Part shown: positions 1 through 20,217 of the stretch, in pieces
How positions within the stretch are numbered: position 1 is the stretch's first letter
Layout of the letters: each line of letters begins with the position of its first letter
IMG/VR virus record: IMGVR_UViG_3300027852_000198
Span: 1-20,217 of that record
Length of the DNA stretch: 20,217 nt
Direction: 5' to 3' (one strand)
DNA from: a virus
Position numbers and translations under genes: made by a program
Notes under the pieces: model-generated
What the model saw: only the letters and a program-made list of their open reading frames with translations
The model's database searches: none
Told to the model about the DNA's origin: nothing

Positions 1-72
1 TCTCCCGGCACGCCAAAACCCCACCGCCATGACGCGAAGTGGGGCAAGGGTGTTGAGTGGATTGAGGCTTAG
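1..72 (+). CDS. C-terminal fragment of an unidentified rightward gene
   Basis: An open frame enters from the left edge and stops with TAG at 70-72. The visible 23 residues end in KWGKGVEWIEA, a normal-looking basic and aromatic tail. The stop overlaps by 4 bases the stop of the leftward ArdC gene, so the two genes converge tail to tail with no room for a terminator. The fragment is too short to name. It could be a chance open frame, since only 24 codons are visible. Confidence 0.35.
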   Translation, partial: SPGTPKPHRHDAKWGKGVEWIEA

Positions 73-956
73 GCGGCGAGCGCCTGCGATGTTTCGCCTT
101 CAAACTGCATGATAAAGTTGGCGGCCTTTGTCGCCATCGATGCGGCTTTGAAGATGGCCCGCTTGTCCTCTTTTAGGACTTTGAGCCATGACGCCAGGTA
201 ATCAGCATGGCGAAGGGTGGTTTCGATTTCCAACCTAGCGCAAAGGAAAGCGGCGGACATTTCCGCAACCAGTTCTTCGCGGGCGTAATCTTTGCTGCCA
301 TGCGTTGTCTTATATTGGCGATCCAGCCGGGATTTGTGCCCTGTCCAGTGGCTCAGCTCATGCAAGCAAACGCCGTAAAAATTGGCCTGATCGTAAAAAC
401 AAACCTGTTCAGGCATTTGAATAAAGTCAGCGCCTGGTGCGTAGAATGCCCCAGACCCGCCTATTCGAAAATCGGCCCCAGTTGCAGCGATTAGAGCCTC
501 AGCGCGTTGATTTAGCTGGCGCTCGATGCGCGGGGCATCGGGAGCGGATGCGGGGGCGGGGAGGCCGTCCACCTGTTCAATGTTGAACACCGTATAGCGC
601 TTGAGGAAGCCCACTGTGCGGGCGGCCTCGCCGGTTTGTTCAGCGCGTGCCTTTTCATCCTTTGGGGTGAATTGGCTCGCGTAAACTACTGTGGTTCCCT
701 TTTCGCCTTTGCGGACGCATCCGCCTAGAGCCTTTGCCTGTTTGAACGTCATCCATTGGTTGGATGCGCGGCCGCCTTCAGCCCCAGCAAGCCACAAAAG
801 CAGGACGTTGACGCCTGAATATTCATTGCCTGTGTGAGCGTTGGTTGGCATCCCGCCCGCCGCGCCGCTATCCCATGGCTTAACCCATGGCACGCGGCCC
901 GCTTCAAGCTCTTGAATGATGCGGTCGGTGACCTGTTCGTAAATGTCTTGTTTCAT
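69..956 (-). CDS. ardC: ArdC-type antirestriction protein (ssDNA-binding domain plus zincin metallopeptidase domain)
   Basis: This 295-residue protein has the two-part ArdC layout. An N-terminal DUF1738/ArdC-N single-stranded-DNA-binding domain covers about residues 1-130 (MKQDIYEQVTDRII, then TNAHTGNEYSGVN near 38-50). A C-terminal zincin-like peptidase domain (MPTase-PolyVal) has HELSH at 199-203 as metal ligands and catalytic Glu, and EELVAE near 227-232 as the likely third-ligand region. Known ArdC proteins of plasmids protect incoming DNA from restriction, and a similar early anti-defence role is inferred here. The start at 956 is preferred over an in-frame ATG at 1013 because TGGAG lies about 9 bases upstream and MKQDIYEQ is the usual family N-terminus. 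It is the only leftward gene seen and diverges from the packaging genes, which suggests separate, probably early, expression. Confidence 0.92.
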   Translation of the reverse strand: MKQDIYEQVTDRIIQELEAGRVPWVKPWDSGAAGGMPTNAHTGNEYSGVNVLLLWLAGAEGGRASNQWMTFKQAKALGGCVRKGEKGTTVVYASQFTPKDEKARAEQTGEAARTVGFLKRYTVFNIEQVDGLPAPASAPDAPRIERQLNQRAEALIAATGADFRIGGSGAFYAPGADFIQMPEQVCFYDQANFYGVCLHELSHWTGHKSRLDRQYKTTHGSKDYAREELVAEMSAAFLCARLEIETTLRHADYLASWLKVLKEDKRAIFKAASMATKAANFIMQFEGETSQALAA

Positions 957-1120
957 TCTGGTAGTCTCCACGTTGCATCGGGCTTGGTTCTCCCGACAAA
1001 ACGCGCGTAACATGGGAATAAACGGAAGTCAACGGAAAACGGATCAATAAGCCACAAAAACTGCGTTTAACGTGCGGCACGAAGTAAAAAAAGAGCGGCG
1101 CGCAGCGTCGCACCGTCTCC

Positions 1121-12192: not shown

Positions 12193-12619
12193 GTTTCGTA
12201 AGATTGCCGCGATGAGCGATGTCCATATAGCGGACATTATGGCCGAGCGCCTGGCTGGTGTATTGGGGCCAAAGTGGCCGGATACCAAGCTGGTTGGCGA
12301 CGCCTGGGCCTATGTTGTTGATGGGGTCGCAATGGGGATTGGTGGGATTGAGCCTGTCTGGACCGGGCGGCGTGTCTTGTGGTCATACCAGGCCGGGCTT
12401 GGGGTGGGCGATTGGAAGCGCGTGCTGCGGTTTACGCGCTTGAAATTGGACCGTGCTTTCGAGGATCCGGCGGTGCGCCGAATTGAGGCGACGGCTCACA
12501 TTGAAGGTTCGCAATTTTGCAATTTTCTGGAACGCCTGGCGTTTCGCAGGGAGGGGCGGTTGGTCGCCTATTCTCCGAATGGCGAGACGATGGACATGTT
12601 TGCACGGGTGCGCGGATGA
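12185..12619 (+). CDS. T7 gp13-like small internal protein with GNAT-like pattern
   Basis: This 144-residue protein sits between the nozzle and gp14-like genes, the place of T7 gp13. The sequence resembles a degenerate GNAT fold: an N-terminal helix (HIADIMAERLAGVLG), a strand pair (YVVDGVAMGIGGIEPVW), RRIEATAHIEG, and FCNFLERLAFRREGRLVAYS, which is the usual place of the last GNAT strand. No clean acetyl-CoA loop (Q/RxxGxG/A) is evident, so enzymatic activity is doubtful. It overlaps the preceding gene by 8 bases and the next by 4. The annotation rests on position plus fold pattern. Confidence 0.72.
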   Translation: MVEFRKIAAMSDVHIADIMAERLAGVLGPKWPDTKLVGDAWAYVVDGVAMGIGGIEPVWTGRRVLWSYQAGLGVGDWKRVLRFTRLKLDRAFEDPAVRRIEATAHIEGSQFCNFLERLAFRREGRLVAYSPNGETMDMFARVRG

Positions 12620-13086
12620 GCGGCATGGAAATGCTTTTGGTTGCGCAGGGCGCAGGAGCGGTGATGGAAACCGTCGGCGGCGTCATGAATGCCGACGCCA
12701 AGGGGAAGGTTGCCGGGAACAATGCGCGGCTGGTGAGCCAGGAGGCTAGTGAAGAAGCTCGCCTGGCGTCAGCGGAGGGGCGGCGGCTGGTTTCAAAAGC
12801 GCGGGTTCGTGCTGGGGCGTCGGGCCTGTCAGTCGATGGATCTGCATTGGACGTAATTGGTGAGCTCGAAGCAGAGGGGGAGTTCCGGTCCCGAACGGCA
12901 ATCCATGAGGGGCGTATCCAGTACGACAATTTCAAAGCGGAAGAACGCGCGGCCAAGCGCGAGAAGGTCGCCATTATCGGTAAGGGTGTGGCGGATATTG
13001 GCTCTACCTTGCTGACGTCCGGATTTGGCGGCGGGGCAACTGATAAAGCGGCGATGAAAAACGCGCAAGCAAAGGCGGGTTTATAG
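12616..13086 (+). CDS. Internal virion protein, T7 gp14-like
   Basis: This 156-residue protein is somewhat shorter than T7 gp14 (196). It begins with a small-residue hydrophobic helix (MLLVAQGAGAVMETVGGVM). Ala/Glu-rich helices follow (LVSQEASEEARLASAEG) and then a VRAGASGLSVDGSALDV turn that is characteristic of gp14-like ejection proteins. In T7, gp14 forms the outer-membrane part of the ejection channel. A longer in-frame start at 12517 lies within the preceding gene. ATG 12616 gives an ATGA overlap and is preferred. The C-terminus is Gly and Ala rich. Confidence 0.8.
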   Translation: MSGMEMLLVAQGAGAVMETVGGVMNADAKGKVAGNNARLVSQEASEEARLASAEGRRLVSKARVRAGASGLSVDGSALDVIGELEAEGEFRSRTAIHEGRIQYDNFKAEERAAKREKVAIIGKGVADIGSTLLTSGFGGGATDKAAMKNAQAKAGL

Positions 13087-15474
13087 ATGGCCGCAAGGAT
13101 TGATGGAGGTCGCGGGCGTTTACCTGCTGCAAGTTCTAGCCGGAATGGCGGCATACGCGTGCGCGGGGCAACAAGCGGTGACCTGGTTGGATCTATAGGG
13201 GCAAGCCTGTCTGACTTTGCCGAGCCCCAGCTTGATAAGATGCGGGTTGAGCGTGCCGAAGCGGAGGCCGCGGCGGATCGCGTAGATGTTGGACGCCGGG
13301 GGTCTGAAGCCCGGTTGACCTGGCAGAAGCGTCTGACTGAGGAATTGGACAATTACGATGGGGCGGAGCCGGGATTTGCCGAGCGCATGGCTGAAGAATA
13401 CGAGAAAGATAGCCGTGTTCGCCTGGAGGGATTGAGGCCGGGCGTCAGGGCGGCTTTGGAGCAAGACCTGGTGCAGTTTGGCGAGCGCTTAACCTCATCC
13501 GCCATCACGGGCGAGCAGGCCAGCCGCCAAGCCTATACGATGCGGGGGTTGCGGGAAACGCTGGATAATGAAGCAATGACCTTGCTTGATACGCCGGATG
13601 ATCTACCGGGCGCGCTTCAAGGGCTGGAATTGCTGGCTGAAGGTGCGCCAAACGCGGTTCGTGAAAAATTTGTTGATGAAGGCCGCAATGTTTTGGTGGC
13701 CAGCTATGCCGAGGCCTTGCTGCGAGATGAGCCTGATCGGCTCGTTTGGGAGCTTAAGGATGGTCTGCTTGATGGTGTGATCGATAGCAAGGAAAAGGCG
13801 CGTTTGTTGGGCGTGGCTGAAGGTGCGCTGGCGCGCCAAACGGCTGCGGGTGAGCGCGCCATTGAGGCCGAGCGAAAACAGCGGGTCGCTGAGGCAAAGT
13901 CCTTGGTGGCGCGAGTTGTCGCTTACGAGAATTCAGGGCTGGCTGCGCCGATTGAATTGTTGGAGGCGGCTCAGGATGCGGCGACGTCAGCCAGCGATGA
14001 CGCGTCGCTGGAAAAGATGCACCTGGCGCAGTACAGGCGGCAGCGTCGCGGGACGGGCGGAACCAGCAAGACCGCCAAACATGCGCTTGATGTGCTTGAA
14101 GATGCCTTGGAAACGGGGTTGTCGCCGTCCCCTGAAATGATCGCCCGCGCGCAACAGGAGGTCGAGGTGGCGGGGAATGCTGCCTATGCGGAACGCTTAG
14201 CCAAAATCGCCAAAACCCAAGGGCTTCGGCAGGAAGCGGCTTTCATGGATAAGTCGGAATTGGATGCCCGAATTTCGGAGCTTCGCTCGGGCAATGTCGG
14301 TGAGCAAGAATTGAATGAATTTAACGTGTTGAGCAAAGTTGCCGAACGCCGTGACCGGGTGGGGAAGACGGACAATGTTGGTTGGGCGATTGCTAATGGC
14401 GCGCGGCTGACACCGATTGTAATTGGATCAGAAAACCTCGTTTCAGATATCGCGACCCGGATCGACCGGGCTGAAGTATTGGCCGAACAGACGGGTGAAA
14501 AACTACAAGTGTTTTCAAAGCGCGAGCGGAGGCTTGTGGTCGAGGGGCTTGAGGCGATGCCGGCGCAAGACCAAGCGGTGGCGTTGGCGCGATTGGTAAC
14601 CGGCGCGGGTGCGCGGTCTGGGCAGGTGATCCGCGAGATTGCAGAGGAGCGGCCAGCTTTGGGGCAGATCGGTTATTTGACTGCGACCGGGCGTTCAAAT
14701 TTTGCGTTACGGGCGCTGGAGGGTGGGACGGCCCTGAAAGAAAATTCAGGCCTGTTGCCTAAGTCGAAATCGGCCATGGAAGCCGCAGAGGACGCGGTGT
14801 TCGGAACGGCCATTCCGAATGCGCGCCGCGATGTTCGGAAGGCTATCGTTGATGCGGCCCGGTCGGCCTATGCGGGTGACCTGTCCCACGCCGGAGAAGA
14901 TGGCGAAGATTATGATGCCGGCGACTATAAAGCCGTGCTGCAAGCGGCCGCTGGTAGATCAGGCGCTAAGGGCGGGATTGGTGAAGTCAACGGCGAGCGT
15001 GTGCAGCTTCCGGCGAATATGAGCGGCCGTGAGGTAAGGGGGCTTTTGAAGGGTATGTCCACCGAAGATTGGCAGGCATTTTCGCTGACCGGCGAAAGTT
15101 CACCCTCAGTCCTGGCCGGTGATGCTTTCGAGAGTTTAGAGGAAAATGAGCTGAAGCGGTCATACCTGATCAGTGTTGGTGAGGGGCGCTATCAGGTCAG
15201 TTTGACCAATCCAAAATACGGTCCGCAATACGTGCTCGATGGATCTGGTGATGTGGCTAATCCGAAGCCATATGTGCTGGATCTAACTCAAGTGAATGCG
15301 TCTGTTGTGTTGCAGCGCTACTCAACCGAAAGCGTTTTGCAAGCCAGCCGGGAACGGGTCGCGCGGCGCAAGGAGTTAGATGAAGATTCGATCGGGCCGC
15401 GGCAAGCGGAGGCCTATCGCGAAGCGTCTCGGCGGCAGCAAGAACAGCAAGATGACCGCGAGGGAGGGGATTGA
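13087..15474 (+). CDS. Internal virion protein, T7 gp15-like
   Basis: This 795-residue protein is close in size to T7 gp15 (747), which forms the periplasmic tube during ejection. It is overwhelmingly helical and rich in Ala, Glu, Arg and Leu, with coiled-coil-like stretches near residues 50-75 and 255-280. There is no signal peptide or clear membrane segment. The N-terminal 30 residues are Gly/Ser/Arg rich and probably flexible. It starts directly after the stop of the gp14-like gene with no gap, and its TGA overlaps the next ATG by one base. Identification depends on order, size and composition, since this family diverges quickly. Confidence 0.78.
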   Translation: MAARIDGGRGRLPAASSSRNGGIRVRGATSGDLVGSIGASLSDFAEPQLDKMRVERAEAEAAADRVDVGRRGSEARLTWQKRLTEELDNYDGAEPGFAERMAEEYEKDSRVRLEGLRPGVRAALEQDLVQFGERLTSSAITGEQASRQAYTMRGLRETLDNEAMTLLDTPDDLPGALQGLELLAEGAPNAVREKFVDEGRNVLVASYAEALLRDEPDRLVWELKDGLLDGVIDSKEKARLLGVAEGALARQTAAGERAIEAERKQRVAEAKSLVARVVAYENSGLAAPIELLEAAQDAATSASDDASLEKMHLAQYRRQRRGTGGTSKTAKHALDVLEDALETGLSPSPEMIARAQQEVEVAGNAAYAERLAKIAKTQGLRQEAAFMDKSELDARISELRSGNVGEQELNEFNVLSKVAERRDRVGKTDNVGWAIANGARLTPIVIGSENLVSDIATRIDRAEVLAEQTGEKLQVFSKRERRLVVEGLEAMPAQDQAVALARLVTGAGARSGQVIREIAEERPALGQIGYLTATGRSNFALRALEGGTALKENSGLLPKSKSAMEAAEDAVFGTAIPNARRDVRKAIVDAARSAYAGDLSHAGEDGEDYDAGDYKAVLQAAAGRSGAKGGIGEVNGERVQLPANMSGREVRGLLKGMSTEDWQAFSLTGESSPSVLAGDAFESLEENELKRSYLISVGEGRYQVSLTNPKYGPQYVLDGSGDVANPKPYVLDLTQVNASVVLQRYSTESVLQASRERVARRKELDEDSIGPRQAEAYREASRRQQEQQDDREGGD

Positions 15475-18400
15475 TGGAAGACGATTTCCTCGAACCTGAT
15501 GATCCAATGCCAGACTTTGTGCCGGCGCAAAAAAAAGAAGGCGAAGATCCCGGCTTTGGCGATATTTTTGGGGCCAGTCTGGAGGCGATGCGCGCGACCG
15601 AGTTGAGCACATCTGAATACGATAATGAACAGTTGGCATATCGGGAAATTGAGAAGGCGGCCCGAACGCATTTGGGCGTTGAGGGGGCGGATCTTTACCC
15701 GATCCTGAGTGAGCTGGACGTTCCGGAATTGGCTGGGATGGATGACAAGCAGCGGGCGGTGTTGAACAATAAGGGTGCCTATCCGTTTGTGAAGGCTTTG
15801 CAATTACAGGCCTGGCGCAATTCGCTGTCACCGGAAGACCGCGCCAAAATACCTGATCCTGCGCGAATTAAGGCGCGTGGGCTGGAAATCGCCATGGAGC
15901 GCTACACAGAAGCGTCTGAAATCATGGAGCGGGCTCAAGGCGCTGGTGAAGGGTTCGCGAAGTTTTCAGGTGGGATGACGGGGGCGATGACGGATCCTGT
16001 AAATATCGCGTCCATGTTTGTGTTTCGCCGCCCTGTTTCGAGCTTCAAGGGCGCAGTCACCTATGGCGCTGTCGCGTCAGGGTCAACCGAGGCGGTCTTG
16101 CAGCCTTTTGTTCAGCAATATCGCGAAGAAGTCGGTTTGCCAGCCGGGTGGAATATCGGGTTTCAAAATGTCTTGTTCGCCACTTTGGGGGGCGGCGTGT
16201 TTGGCGGTGTCGAGGGCGGGTTTATCAAGCTGGGTCAGGCGATCCGGCGGCGGAAGCGTCAGGGGGTTGCTGATGAGATCGATCAGCAGGTTGGTGAGAT
16301 TGTCGATCGGTTTGAGGCTGGCGATCTGGATGCTGAAGGTGTGAATGAGGCCTTTGTTGGCCTGGCTGAGCGTGAGCCGGCCTTCGCGGCGGCGCTGGAA
16401 ATATCGCAGCGCGCAGCGGCGGCTCGGGATTTGGACGGTGCAAACCCATATCAATTGACGCCTGAAGCAGTGGAGATCCACCGCGCCAAAGTCGCAAACG
16501 CGGAAGCCGAATTGTTAGATCAGCCGGCTCCGTTTGACTTGAATGAGTTTTCGGATGATCCGCCGGTATTGTCTTCGGGTGAGCCGGTGCCGCGCGAATG
16601 GGCCGAATTAGGGATTGAGGTTGTCGATTATGCTGCCATCCAGCGCGACGCCAAGCGATTTCAATTCAAGGAGGCTGACGGTGATGGTCTGACCGATGCG
16701 TTGAAAGATGTTGATGTCTGGGAGCCTGAGCGTGCCGGCGCGTTGCTGGTTTGGGAGAGTAAAGACGGGACGCGGTTTATCGCCAATGGGCATCAGCGTC
16801 ACGCGCTGGCAAGGCGTCTAACCGATGAGAGCGGGGGTCCGATTTCAGGGCCCGCTTTCATTCTGCGAGAGGTCGATGGGGTTAGCGCGGAAGATGCGAT
16901 GGTGCGTGGTGCGCTGGTCAATATTGGTGAGGGAAGCGGGACCAGTATGGATGCCGCGCGGATCCTGCGAACAAATTCAGAAATAGGGGCAACGCTGCCG
17001 CCGCGATCGCCATTGGTGCGAGAAGCGCGCGGTCTGGCGGAATTGTCCGATGACGCCTTCGGTCTTGTGATCAATGGTCAAATTAGTGCGCGCAACGCGT
17101 CGCTGGTTGGCCGCTTGGTGCAGGATCCGGAACTTCAATCGCAAATTGGTTTGGCGTTGCAGCGTGTCGACCCAAGGACCGCAACGGAGGCAAATTCCAT
17201 CATTGCAGATCTTCAGTCTGCGCCAGTGGTCGAGGGTAAAACGATCGACCTATTCGGTGAGAGTGGTTTTCGCCAGGCATTGATTGCTGAACGGGCACAA
17301 GTGAAGGCGGCTGTTTTACGACAACTGGCCTCAGACAAGCGAGCTTTCGGGACGTTAAACCGGCGGGCCGACCGCATTGAGGCAGAGGGCAATAGGCTAG
17401 ACAGTCAGCGCAATGCTGACGTAGAGTTGGACACGGCGAGATTGGCCGAACGGATTGGAAGAGAAGCGCATGTCAAAGGTGAAGTCTCAGACGCGCTCAA
17501 CCGCGCCGCCCGCGCCGTCGCAGACGGACAGTCCGCCCTCCAAGCTGCAAGAGGCCTTGTCGACGATCTCAGCGGAGAGTTTATTGGCAGCGGGACAGGA
17601 CGCGGCGCTGATGCGCCAGGCGGAGGCCAAGCTGAACGAGCGGGCGCGCGGGCGGAAAGCCCTGAGCCAGGTTCCGGACGCGGAAACGCTGATCTCCTAG
17701 ATCCAGCCACGCGGGCCGCCGATGAGTTTGGTCCAGATGTTGCGGCGCTCATCAAGAGGGGCGGGCCTGATGACGGTGGTTCTGGTGGGCGATTTGCAAA
17801 AACTCTTAGCCAGGAGCGGTTCGAAGACCCCCGCCTAACACGGCAGCAAAATAAAGCGGTCGAATTGTATCGAAATGGCTTTTCGTTCCAGGAGGTTGCT
17901 GATGAATTGGTTGTTTCTCATGGCCACTTGAGTGTGTTGTTTAGTAATGCCCGCAAGATCACTGGGATCGATATTCCTCATCAACGGGCAGGGCCCTCAA
18001 GAGCGGCTAGGGAGATGGCGGTTCATCTGAAAGAACAAGGGCTTAGTAACGAGGTAATTGCGGTGCGCATGCGGGCTGTTTTCGATAAGGATTACACGCG
18101 CAAGAAGATAGCTGAAATGTTGTCGCAAGAGCGAAGAAAGCTGCGGGAAAACGGGGTTGATCCGATGTTCACCAAGGACGCGCTTGACCTTGCTAGCCCT
18201 GCCGAGCTGACGCGAATGGATACGCTGTTTACACGTGAAAATGCCCGGACTGTCGCGCGCGCATTGGCCGAAGCGGCGGCATGTGCGGGGGGTGTGCCAA
18301 TGTCTGGATTGGGTAATGCGGTGGTTGGTGGCACGTTGGCTGTTGGTGTTAGTCTCGGGGTGGGTGGTGTGATGATTACTGCCGGTACGCCGCGCGATCG

Positions 18401-19181
18401 TCTGTCGCGCAAGATGCAGCATTTTGAAACAGCGCCATCACTAGAGGGAGAACGGCGTGAACGCGCTCGATTGCGCAAGGCGGCGATTTTGGATAATTCG
18501 CTCGATTATTCCTACCGGCTTCACCGCATGTTGAGTGATGAAGCGACCTCCTTTTATCGTGAAAATCTCGATGAATTGGAGGTTGTGTCTCAGTTTCACG
18601 CCAATTTGTGGGGGCAAAAACTGACCGGCGTGTCGGCGGAATATCTTGATGATATGATTGCGCATGAAAGCGCCGGCGATTGGCAGGCGCGGCCGCCTGT
18701 CGGATCGGCGTATGGTGGCGCGCAATTTATCAATTCGACCTGGTTGCGGATGATGAAAGAGCATGGGCCGTCCTATGGTCTGACAATGGATCCGCACTCA
18801 ACAGATCCGGGCGTCCGGGCTGCGGTTCTTGAGATGCGATCCGATCGACGCTGGGGCACGATCATGGCCGGAGAATATGCGCGGGAAAATGGTACGCACC
18901 TGGAGCGTGTCCTGAAGCGGCCGGTGACGCAAAAAGAGGGCTATCTGGCTCACTTTCTTGGATCGGGCGTTGCGCTGAAGCTGTTGCGAGCTGATCCCAA
19001 TGCAGAAGGGGCCGTGCTGATGCCGCGAGAGGCCAGAAACAATCATAATGTGTTTTACAAGACGTCTGACAAAAGCCAGCCAAGATCGGTTCGTGAGGTA
19101 ATCGCGCGGCAAACGCGTGGATTTAGCAATCGGCCTTTGATGGGCGCGCGCGAAGTGGAAGCTTCAGGAGGTGAAACGTGA
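15474..19181 (+). CDS. gp16-position ejection protein: ParB-like, HTH-like and C-terminal lytic transglycosylase
   Basis: This 1235-residue protein is close in size to T7 gp16 (1318) but has a different domain order. Residues about 150-265 hold hydrophobic Gly-rich segments (FATLGGGVFGGVEGGF). Around 365-480 is a ParB-like segment with GHQRHALARR at 439-448 and a following ILREVDG strand. About 640-790 is charged and then a Gly/Pro/Ala-rich linker. A helix-turn-helix-like segment starts near Leu788 (LTRQQNKAVELYRNG), and a second follows near 840-895 (LKEQGLSNEVIAVRMR). A Gly-rich hydrophobic stretch lies at about 938-972. The C-terminus is a transglycosylase domain with likely catalytic Glu1065 in IAHESAGDW, then YGGAQFINSTWL and YLAHFLGSGVALKLL. 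It probably enters the cell with the DNA and cuts peptidoglycan. ATG 15474 is preferred, with GGGAGGGG upstream. Confidence 0.9.
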   Translation: MEDDFLEPDDPMPDFVPAQKKEGEDPGFGDIFGASLEAMRATELSTSEYDNEQLAYREIEKAARTHLGVEGADLYPILSELDVPELAGMDDKQRAVLNNKGAYPFVKALQLQAWRNSLSPEDRAKIPDPARIKARGLEIAMERYTEASEIMERAQGAGEGFAKFSGGMTGAMTDPVNIASMFVFRRPVSSFKGAVTYGAVASGSTEAVLQPFVQQYREEVGLPAGWNIGFQNVLFATLGGGVFGGVEGGFIKLGQAIRRRKRQGVADEIDQQVGEIVDRFEAGDLDAEGVNEAFVGLAEREPAFAAALEISQRAAAARDLDGANPYQLTPEAVEIHRAKVANAEAELLDQPAPFDLNEFSDDPPVLSSGEPVPREWAELGIEVVDYAAIQRDAKRFQFKEADGDGLTDALKDVDVWEPERAGALLVWESKDGTRFIANGHQRHALARRLTDESGGPISGPAFILREVDGVSAEDAMVRGALVNIGEGSGTSMDAARILRTNSEIGATLPPRSPLVREARGLAELSDDAFGLVINGQISARNASLVGRLVQDPELQSQIGLALQRVDPRTATEANSIIADLQSAPVVEGKTIDLFGESGFRQALIAERAQVKAAVLRQLASDKRAFGTLNRRADRIEAEGNRLDSQRNADVELDTARLAERIGREAHVKGEVSDALNRAARAVADGQSALQAARGLVDDLSGEFIGSGTGRGADAPGGGQAERAGARAESPEPGSGRGNADLLDPATRAADEFGPDVAALIKRGGPDDGGSGGRFAKTLSQERFEDPRLTRQQNKAVELYRNGFSFQEVADELVVSHGHLSVLFSNARKITGIDIPHQRAGPSRAAREMAVHLKEQGLSNEVIAVRMRAVFDKDYTRKKIAEMLSQERRKLRENGVDPMFTKDALDLASPAELTRMDTLFTRENARTVARALAEAAACAGGVPMSGLGNAVVGGTLAVGVSLGVGGVMITAGTPRDRLSRKMQHFETAPSLEGERRERARLRKAAILDNSLDYSYRLHRMLSDEATSFYRENLDELEVVSQFHANLWGQKLTGVSAEYLDDMIAHESAGDWQARPPVGSAYGGAQFINSTWLRMMKEHGPSYGLTMDPHSTDPGVRAAVLEMRSDRRWGTIMAGEYARENGTHLERVLKRPVTQKEGYLAHFLGSGVALKLLRADPNAEGAVLMPREARNNHNVFYKTSDKSQPRSVREVIARQTRGFSNRPLMGAREVEASGGET

Positions 19182-20217
19182 CGCCTGAATGCCGTGTCCG
19201 CGTTGCCCGTGTTTTGGGGCGCGATATATCCAAGCGAGAAATGGCAGAATTGGACGCACGAATTGAGCGATCAGGCCGGTATCTCGCGCGAAATGATCCA
19301 AAATGGCAGTCGTATGGCGATTTGGAGCGAATGCGGCGCGCGGGTGATCATGCCGGTCGCTTGGTTGATGCTGAGGCGCGGGATGTCGTGCGGGCGTTCG
19401 ATATGGATTACCGTTTGCGCCATGCCGGTCGTCAGGCAATGGGGCGGGATTTTGACGTATTGGAGCGCACCGGCCGGATATCGTTCAAGGACCGGGCGAG
19501 CGATCTCCCTCAGTTTCGCAATGGCGCGGATGATGATGCGGTAGCGGTGACTTTGGATGATGGCAGTGTTGTTTTATTTCGCGATCGGATGACGCCAGCG
19601 GCAATGCCGGAAGTGTTGTTACATGAGGTTGGTGTTCATTCGGGTATGCGCGGCTTTCTAGGTGAGAAGGGGTGGGCGCGGCTGCTGGATGAGGTCGAAG
19701 CGGCGATTGCGCGCGGGGATCCAAACGCCGTCGATGCGGCCGCCCGCGTGCCGTCCGATACGCCACCCGCGCACTTTCTTGAAGAAGTGTTGGCCCATTG
19801 GGTTCAATTTGCGCCGGCGAAGGATCCGTTTGTGTCCGGAATGTTGGGAAAGATGCGGGCCTGGATCTATCGCCATATCCCTTTCGTTCGCGGCAGGGTG
19901 AAGCTCACCAATGCAACGGTGCGCGAGCTTGCGGCCGGAGCGTTACGCAAGGCCGGTTCCGGCGCGCGGAAACTGTCAAGGACAGGAGAAGGCCCGGTAA
20001 AGGTTTTGCCGGCGGAAAATGGTGGCGGCCGGTTTTCAAAAACCCATTCGGGGATCTTGCCGTTCGAGCAGTTTGAGGCGGAGATGCGGGGTATTCGTGA
20101 TGACTGGGCCCCCGATGAGATTGCACGGGCCTATGAGTTGCACCGGATTTATATGCAAACCGCTGGCACGGGCGCGGCTGCGCCGGCGGTTGCCGGGCAA
20201 GACCCGGTAGATCGTGG
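19178..20217 (+). CDS. Large polyvalent-type protein with HExxxH metallopeptidase-like motif, truncated by window end
   Basis: From GTG 19178 a single frame stays open to the right edge (346 codons). AGGAG at 19166-19170 lies 7 bases upstream, and the start overlaps the preceding TGA by 4 bases. The N-terminal third is helical and charged. Residues 149-154 read HEVGVH, followed by SGMRGFLG. This is the HExxxH-x-GLR-like pattern seen in phage and plasmid polyvalent proteins with zincin-like peptidase domains. FLEEVLAHW at 200-208 may supply a further metal ligand. After about residue 270 a linker leads into FSKTHSGILPFEQFE, perhaps the start of another domain. No typical signal peptide is visible. 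A role as an injected anti-defence or processing protein is inferred from family context and from its neighbour. Confidence 0.85.
   Translation, partial: MTPECRVRVARVLGRDISKREMAELDARIERSGRYLARNDPKWQSYGDLERMRRAGDHAGRLVDAEARDVVRAFDMDYRLRHAGRQAMGRDFDVLERTGRISFKDRASDLPQFRNGADDDAVAVTLDDGSVVLFRDRMTPAAMPEVLLHEVGVHSGMRGFLGEKGWARLLDEVEAAIARGDPNAVDAAARVPSDTPPAHFLEEVLAHWVQFAPAKDPFVSGMLGKMRAWIYRHIPFVRGRVKLTNATVRELAAGALRKAGSGARKLSRTGEGPVKVLPAENGGGRFSKTHSGILPFEQFEAEMRGIRDDWAPDEIARAYELHRIYMQTAGTGAAAPAVAGQDPVDR

Follow-up and report, generated by a model that had tools for sequence, protein, structure and literature searches.

A predicted HEXXXH zinc metallopeptidase with a pilot-type N-terminal segment, probably a small ejection protein of a podovirus

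The last gene of the virus record IMGVR_UViG_3300027852_000198, here called the target, probably encodes a stand-alone podovirus ejection protein of ~350-390 residues, composed of an N-terminal segment of the type found in pilot proteins and an HEXXXH zinc metallopeptidase domain. This reading builds on the computed homology of both parts, the invariance of the catalytic set, the gene order, a predicted zincin-like topology and a short relative; we infer that the protein would be packaged and ejected, bind zinc and cleave a protein substrate, and where its gene would end. The HEXXXH peptidase domain itself is rare but has already been described, and what looks new is its occurrence in a small stand-alone protein behind a pilot N-segment. 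The features discussed below are located in Table 1.

Table 1. Location of the target gene, its parts and the adjoining genes (positions in the window)
Feature	Position	Strand	Evidence or remark
Two internal-virion genes upstream (gp14-like phrog_418; gp15-like phrog_992)	12517..15474	+	PHROG matches
Upstream gene in the gp16 position of the ejection cassette, with C-terminal lytic transglycosylase domain	15471..19181	+	phrog_4067 E=3e-32; weak PF06737
Shine-Dalgarno-like GGAGG	19167..19171	+	Sequence; six bases ahead of GTG
Target gene, 5' 346 codons	19178..20217	+	Truncated at record end; homologue L010:10546-11622 = 358 aa
Residues 1-68, N-terminal segment with homology to the phrog_684 N-terminus (epsilon15 gp17-type pilot)	19178..19381	+	Profile matches, HMM, shuffles
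Zincin-like metallopeptidase domain (predicted), residues 93-260	19454..19957	+	Homologues, HMM, alignments; AlphaFold pLDDT mostly 85-96 over 93-210
HEVGVH, residues 149-154; H149 and H154 predicted to bind metal, E150 to be the general base; G152 conserved	19622..19639	+	Alignments A2, A3, A4
E203, predicted to be the third metal ligand; lies in the following long helix	19784..19786	+	Invariant in A2, A3; helix 197-211 in model
C-terminal helical hairpin, residues 296-329	20063..20164	+	AlphaFold; aligns with L010 up to ~40 residues before its stop

The gene at the record end and its neighbours

The window analysed here is the complete IMG/VR record of 20,217 bases, and the stop codon of the target therefore lies outside the readable sequence. 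The original prediction had described a GTG-started frame that overlaps the transglycosylase gene by four bases and stays open for 346 codons, and all of this was re-read in the sequence: the frame contains no stop between 19178 and 20215 and then exits the record, and the overlap is GTGA, since the transglycosylase ORF stops at 19181. The GTG sits behind CAGGAGGTGAAAC, in which the Shine-Dalgarno-like GGAGG lies at a normal distance. The frame is considered real and not a product of chance, because a chance open frame of this length at the same composition has P ~3e-6, its codon-position GC (0.70/0.49/0.60) is like that of the adjoining genes and it has protein-level homologues. PADLOC gave no match.

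The record is that of a podovirus. Its gene series comprises a terminase, a PF12236 head-tail connector, capsid and tail genes, followed by internal-protein genes in the order phrog_418 (gp14-like), phrog_992 (gp15-like), a protein of 1,236 residues bearing a transglycosylase at its C-terminus, and last the target. The slot after the gp16-like gene is occupied by a phrog_684 pilot protein of 824-847 residues in the epsilon15-type phages phiV10, BUCT711, Piluca and YeP5 and likewise on the P. aeruginosa plasmid pSRV_K_1; the Piluca annotation names it an epsilon15 gp17-like pilot protein. Because the neighbours of the target form an ejection-protein cassette, the earlier idea that the protein enters with the DNA is reasonable.

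Some minor observations concern the transglycosylase-bearing protein. Its residues 388-690 (window 16632-17540, + strand) match phrog_10691 (E=2e-44) and, with E=5e-21, the C-terminal end of phrog_21 ('portal protein'), and show 40% identity to proteins from Ruegeria phage 45A6 and Dunaliella viridis virus SI2; judged from these matches, the region is a common domain without a name. The SI2 record (HQ332136.1 / NC_023841.1), listed in the phage collection with a genome of 37 kb, names a green alga as the host, which looks doubtful. A ParB-like domain guessed by eye from FIANGHQRHALARRL was unsupported by comparison with two ddrB-ParB proteins.

The N-terminal segment, the L010 relative and the expected length

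The N-terminal segment of the target matches the PHROG profiles phrog_684 (E=1.7e-7) and phrog_23925 (E=5.9e-8) and is 40% identical to the BUCT711 protein. With an HMM built from six phrog_684 pilot proteins only, the target scored 44 bits (E=1.2e-11) and its homologue in L010, introduced below, E=5e-8 among 9,698 sequences; no unrelated sequence in this set fell below E 0.2, and none of 300 shuffles attained the observed score. The profile match ends at residue 65-78. The target thus shares with the epsilon15 gp17-type pilots (phiV10, BUCT711, Piluca) their N-terminal 68 residues and the position after the gp16-like gene, whereas the pilot body (~residues 99-830 of phrog_684) is absent from its readable part and the pilot proteins themselves showed no peptidase domain.

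One syntenic relative, IMGVR_UViG_3300037043_000408 (L010), was identified with the transglycosylase end as query, and no further close relatives were found in the viral and genome collections searched. L010 has the same order of gp14-like, gp15-like, transglycosylase and target-like genes. Its gene after the transglycosylase encodes a protein with the motif HEQGAH that shares 41% identity with the target over residues 5-257 (E=1e-49), and is followed by a separate 840-residue phrog_684 (epsilon15-gp17-type) pilot gene, so that the pilot body is found in the next gene. The N-terminus of this L010 pilot protein gave no match to the N-segment HMM despite a leader of similar length (starting ...DECIQAARDEG), about the usual length ahead of the conserved body; the segment is therefore strongly diverged or replaced there.

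The alignment of the target with L010 reaches the last codons of the window, C-terminal helices included, although the tail is aligned loosely; by eye, the last match pairs VDR of the target with MDR of L010, ~11 residues before the L010 stop. On the basis of this one relative, the target stop is expected ~10-40 codons past 20217, and the protein probably has about 360 residues and is not a giant multi-domain one. When several unrelated domains were looked for, the L010 homologue was found to hold one enzyme domain, the target itself being truncated by the record end. The large gene with more effector domains that had been proposed is not what the comparison points to: the syntenic homologue has 358 aa, and its N-terminus is a pilot segment, not an effector. 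The complete architecture was seen in this one relative only.

The junction of the L010 peptidase and pilot genes reads CAGGGGGTGCGTGCTTTGAGC (L010:11590-11625) and shows a G5 run and a -1 frame relation. The pilot gene has a possible TTG start that overlaps the peptidase stop (TTGA), seven bases after AGGGGG, which is Shine-Dalgarno spacing. Such an arrangement could reflect translational coupling, a site of frameshifting or a gene that split long ago.

Active site and fold of the HEXXXH domain

The target domain has matches in LPD23 plasmid proteins and in the giant DarB-like/PLxRFG proteins encoded by 57-63 kb phages, with tblastn E values as low as 1e-7. Two scans of DNA for the pattern HExGxHxG...RVP, filtered by HMM, yielded ~25 further IMG/VR members. 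These lie in larger ORFs or in ones interrupted by a contig end, and in some cases the ORF additionally holds ART-PolyVal, ddrB-ParB, LPD38 or helicase domains. This homology bears out the original assignment to a polyvalent-protein type of domain. No Pfam or NCBIfam zincin model, MPTase-PolyVal PF18818 included, matches the target, nor did a search of solved structures by sequence give a significant match. An NCBIfam acylphosphatase match (E=6.6e-4) was discarded as chance, as it reached 19.7 bits against a cut-off of 114 and is absent from the relatives. Since the HEXXXH domain goes unrecognised by Pfam and NCBIfam models, a family model made from an alignment like A3 or A4 would better annotate many phage proteins.

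HEVGVH had been singled out as an HExxxH motif unlike the usual HExxH. It is indeed present in the frame, and the spacing has a precedent: an HEXXXH set of zincin-like metallopeptidases (MPTases) in phage polyvalent proteins was explicitly described, with a predicted helix bend (Iyer et al. 2017, PMC5512222). H149, E150 and H154 are invariant in alignments A2, A3 and A4, and in A3 (25 HExxxH domains) so are G152, A187 and E203. The conservation of G152, G156 and R190-P192 is partly built in, because these positions belonged to the search pattern for most alignment rows; E203 and A187 did not. The glutamate pair noted earlier (E202/E203, supplied by LEE) is present, but only its second member is conserved: L010 has HDE there and E202 varies in the family, while E203 is invariant in HExxH relatives as well. 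The predicted third metal ligand is, from this conservation, E203 alone and not E202.

In the AlphaFold full model, helix 90-97 is followed by strands 101-104, 123-125 and 131-134, a helix (140-178) that contains HEVGVH, a short helix and helix 197-211 with E203. A domain-only model has the same topology (mean pLDDT 84.9, pTM 0.78). The modelled order of a helix, three strands and two helices is that of the MPTases of Iyer et al. (PMC5512222), in which the glutamate ligand is placed in the second C-terminal helix. Foldseek returned significant matches to other predicted phage proteins only, the closest in BFVD being a protein of Burkholderia phage Bp-AMP4 (E=2.8e-6). The PDB fold search gave no match at E<=0.001, with lethal factor, PprI and MATCAP among the weak ones. 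Structure prediction, which had been put forward as a check, gives a confident model of the domain with a predicted zincin-like topology but no significant match to a solved zincin. Taking sequence and model together, the domain is predicted to be a zinc peptidase of the HEXXXH polyvalent subtype, for which zinc binding and proteolysis would be expected.

The HEXXXH MPTases of Iyer et al. (PMC5512222) are like the target in motif, next-helix glutamate, topology and phage late-gene context. They reside, however, in large multi-domain proteins, whereas the target domain lies behind a pilot N-segment in a protein that is probably far shorter. The HExxH relatives in DarB-like/PLxRFG giants (Burkholderia phage JC1, Klebsiella phage LASTA, Ochrobactrum phage POI1126, Serratia phage Parlo; ~26-31% domain identity) have the third glutamate as in the target, but their motif is one residue shorter (HEAFH, HELFH). 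When the interior of the motif was left out, one fully supported branch still parted HExxxH from HExxH forms in a tree of 33 domains; the counts of both forms in this tree are not representative, because most HExxxH forms were sampled by motif.

The HExxxH spacing is compatible with catalysis, as demonstrated by DPP III (HELLGH), studied by mutagenesis of its two histidines, the glutamate that acts as base and the third glutamate, and by the HEXXXH zinc peptidases TMCP1/2 (TMCP/MATCAP). M49 DPP III (HELLGH-52 residues-E) and TMCP/MATCAP have the glutamate ~50 residues on, and the target has 48 residues between H154 and E203. This is a working resemblance only: no sequence relation is detectable, and DPP III is not among the PDB sequence or fold matches of the target.

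Proposed role and alternative readings

As an ejection protein, the target would dock in the head onto the remaining ejection proteins through its pilot-type N-terminal helices and would enter the cell along with them. H149, H154 and E203 would hold zinc and E150 would activate water. The enzyme would then act in trans. Its simplest substrate would be one of the gp15/gp16/pilot proteins ejected with it, cut as they mature or are delivered; a host protein is a less likely substrate. Self-processing has been proposed for large polyvalent chains (Iyer et al. 2017, PMC5512222), but cleavage in cis would have little to release here because the protein is so small.

Three other readings were weighed. 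The frame could run on into a pilot body, giving a fused protein of ~1,200 residues (pilot N-segment, HEXXXH peptidase and pilot body) in which the peptidase might free the pilot body by self-cleavage. The abutting peptidase and pilot genes of L010, -1 frame apart and overlapping at the G5 run, are consistent with this, as is the presence of the N-segment on the peptidase protein while the L010 pilot N-terminus gives no score, as if the domain had been inserted in a later-split pilot gene; most domain relatives also sit in large ORFs. We nevertheless consider such a fusion unlikely, as L010 has two separate ORFs, the downstream one with its possible TTG start (TTGA), SD-like AGGGGG and a near-usual leader before the conserved body, and as the window frame has already consumed nearly the full length of the L010 protein. 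The giant polyvalent protein of the original prediction, thousands of residues long and with several effector domains, would be in keeping with the same domain inside 3-5 thousand-residue proteins of the 57-63 kb phages and plasmids. The giants that were fetched, however, belong to other phage groups and give no significant pilot N-segment score, and the sole syntenic relative is short, which makes this reading very improbable.

The remaining reading accepts the small protein but not its activity, with the fold kept in an inactive protein that serves as a structural ejection protein. Some phage structural proteins bear inactive enzyme-like domains, and the target is found in an internal virion protein context. 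Against this, every predicted catalytic residue is invariant across very divergent relatives, and we would give loss of activity only a small chance.

The analysis corrects a tempting over-reading, since a contig-edge open frame that contains a domain of the polyvalent type probably encodes a small protein here. More tentatively, the pilot N-terminal ~68 residues may be a portable loading-and-ejection signal, placed on a free zinc peptidase that is delivered separately at the start of infection, in which case the functions of a giant polyvalent protein would be spread over separately loaded ejection proteins. Should the N-segment be a loading signal, its sharing by pilot and peptidase would offer a compact, testable case of how podoviruses pick injected proteins.

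Other zincin-like domains were encountered in passing. A partial ORF elsewhere (L120:2-3355, - strand) has two HExxxH peptidase domains in tandem, one with HELGGH and one with HEVGGH. At the left end of the window, positions 69-1013 (- strand) encode an ArdC-type antirestriction protein (ArdcN E=7e-46, MPTase-PolyVal E=9e-52, HELSH), which is a second, different zincin of the same phage; ArdC-N is rare in phage-type polyvalent proteins (Iyer et al. 2017, PMC5512222). The MPTase-PolyVal family of this gene (PF18818; ArdC) is zincin-like with an LHE motif after a strand, as in the target, but HHalign pairs the two LHE motifs weakly (probability 5.8%).
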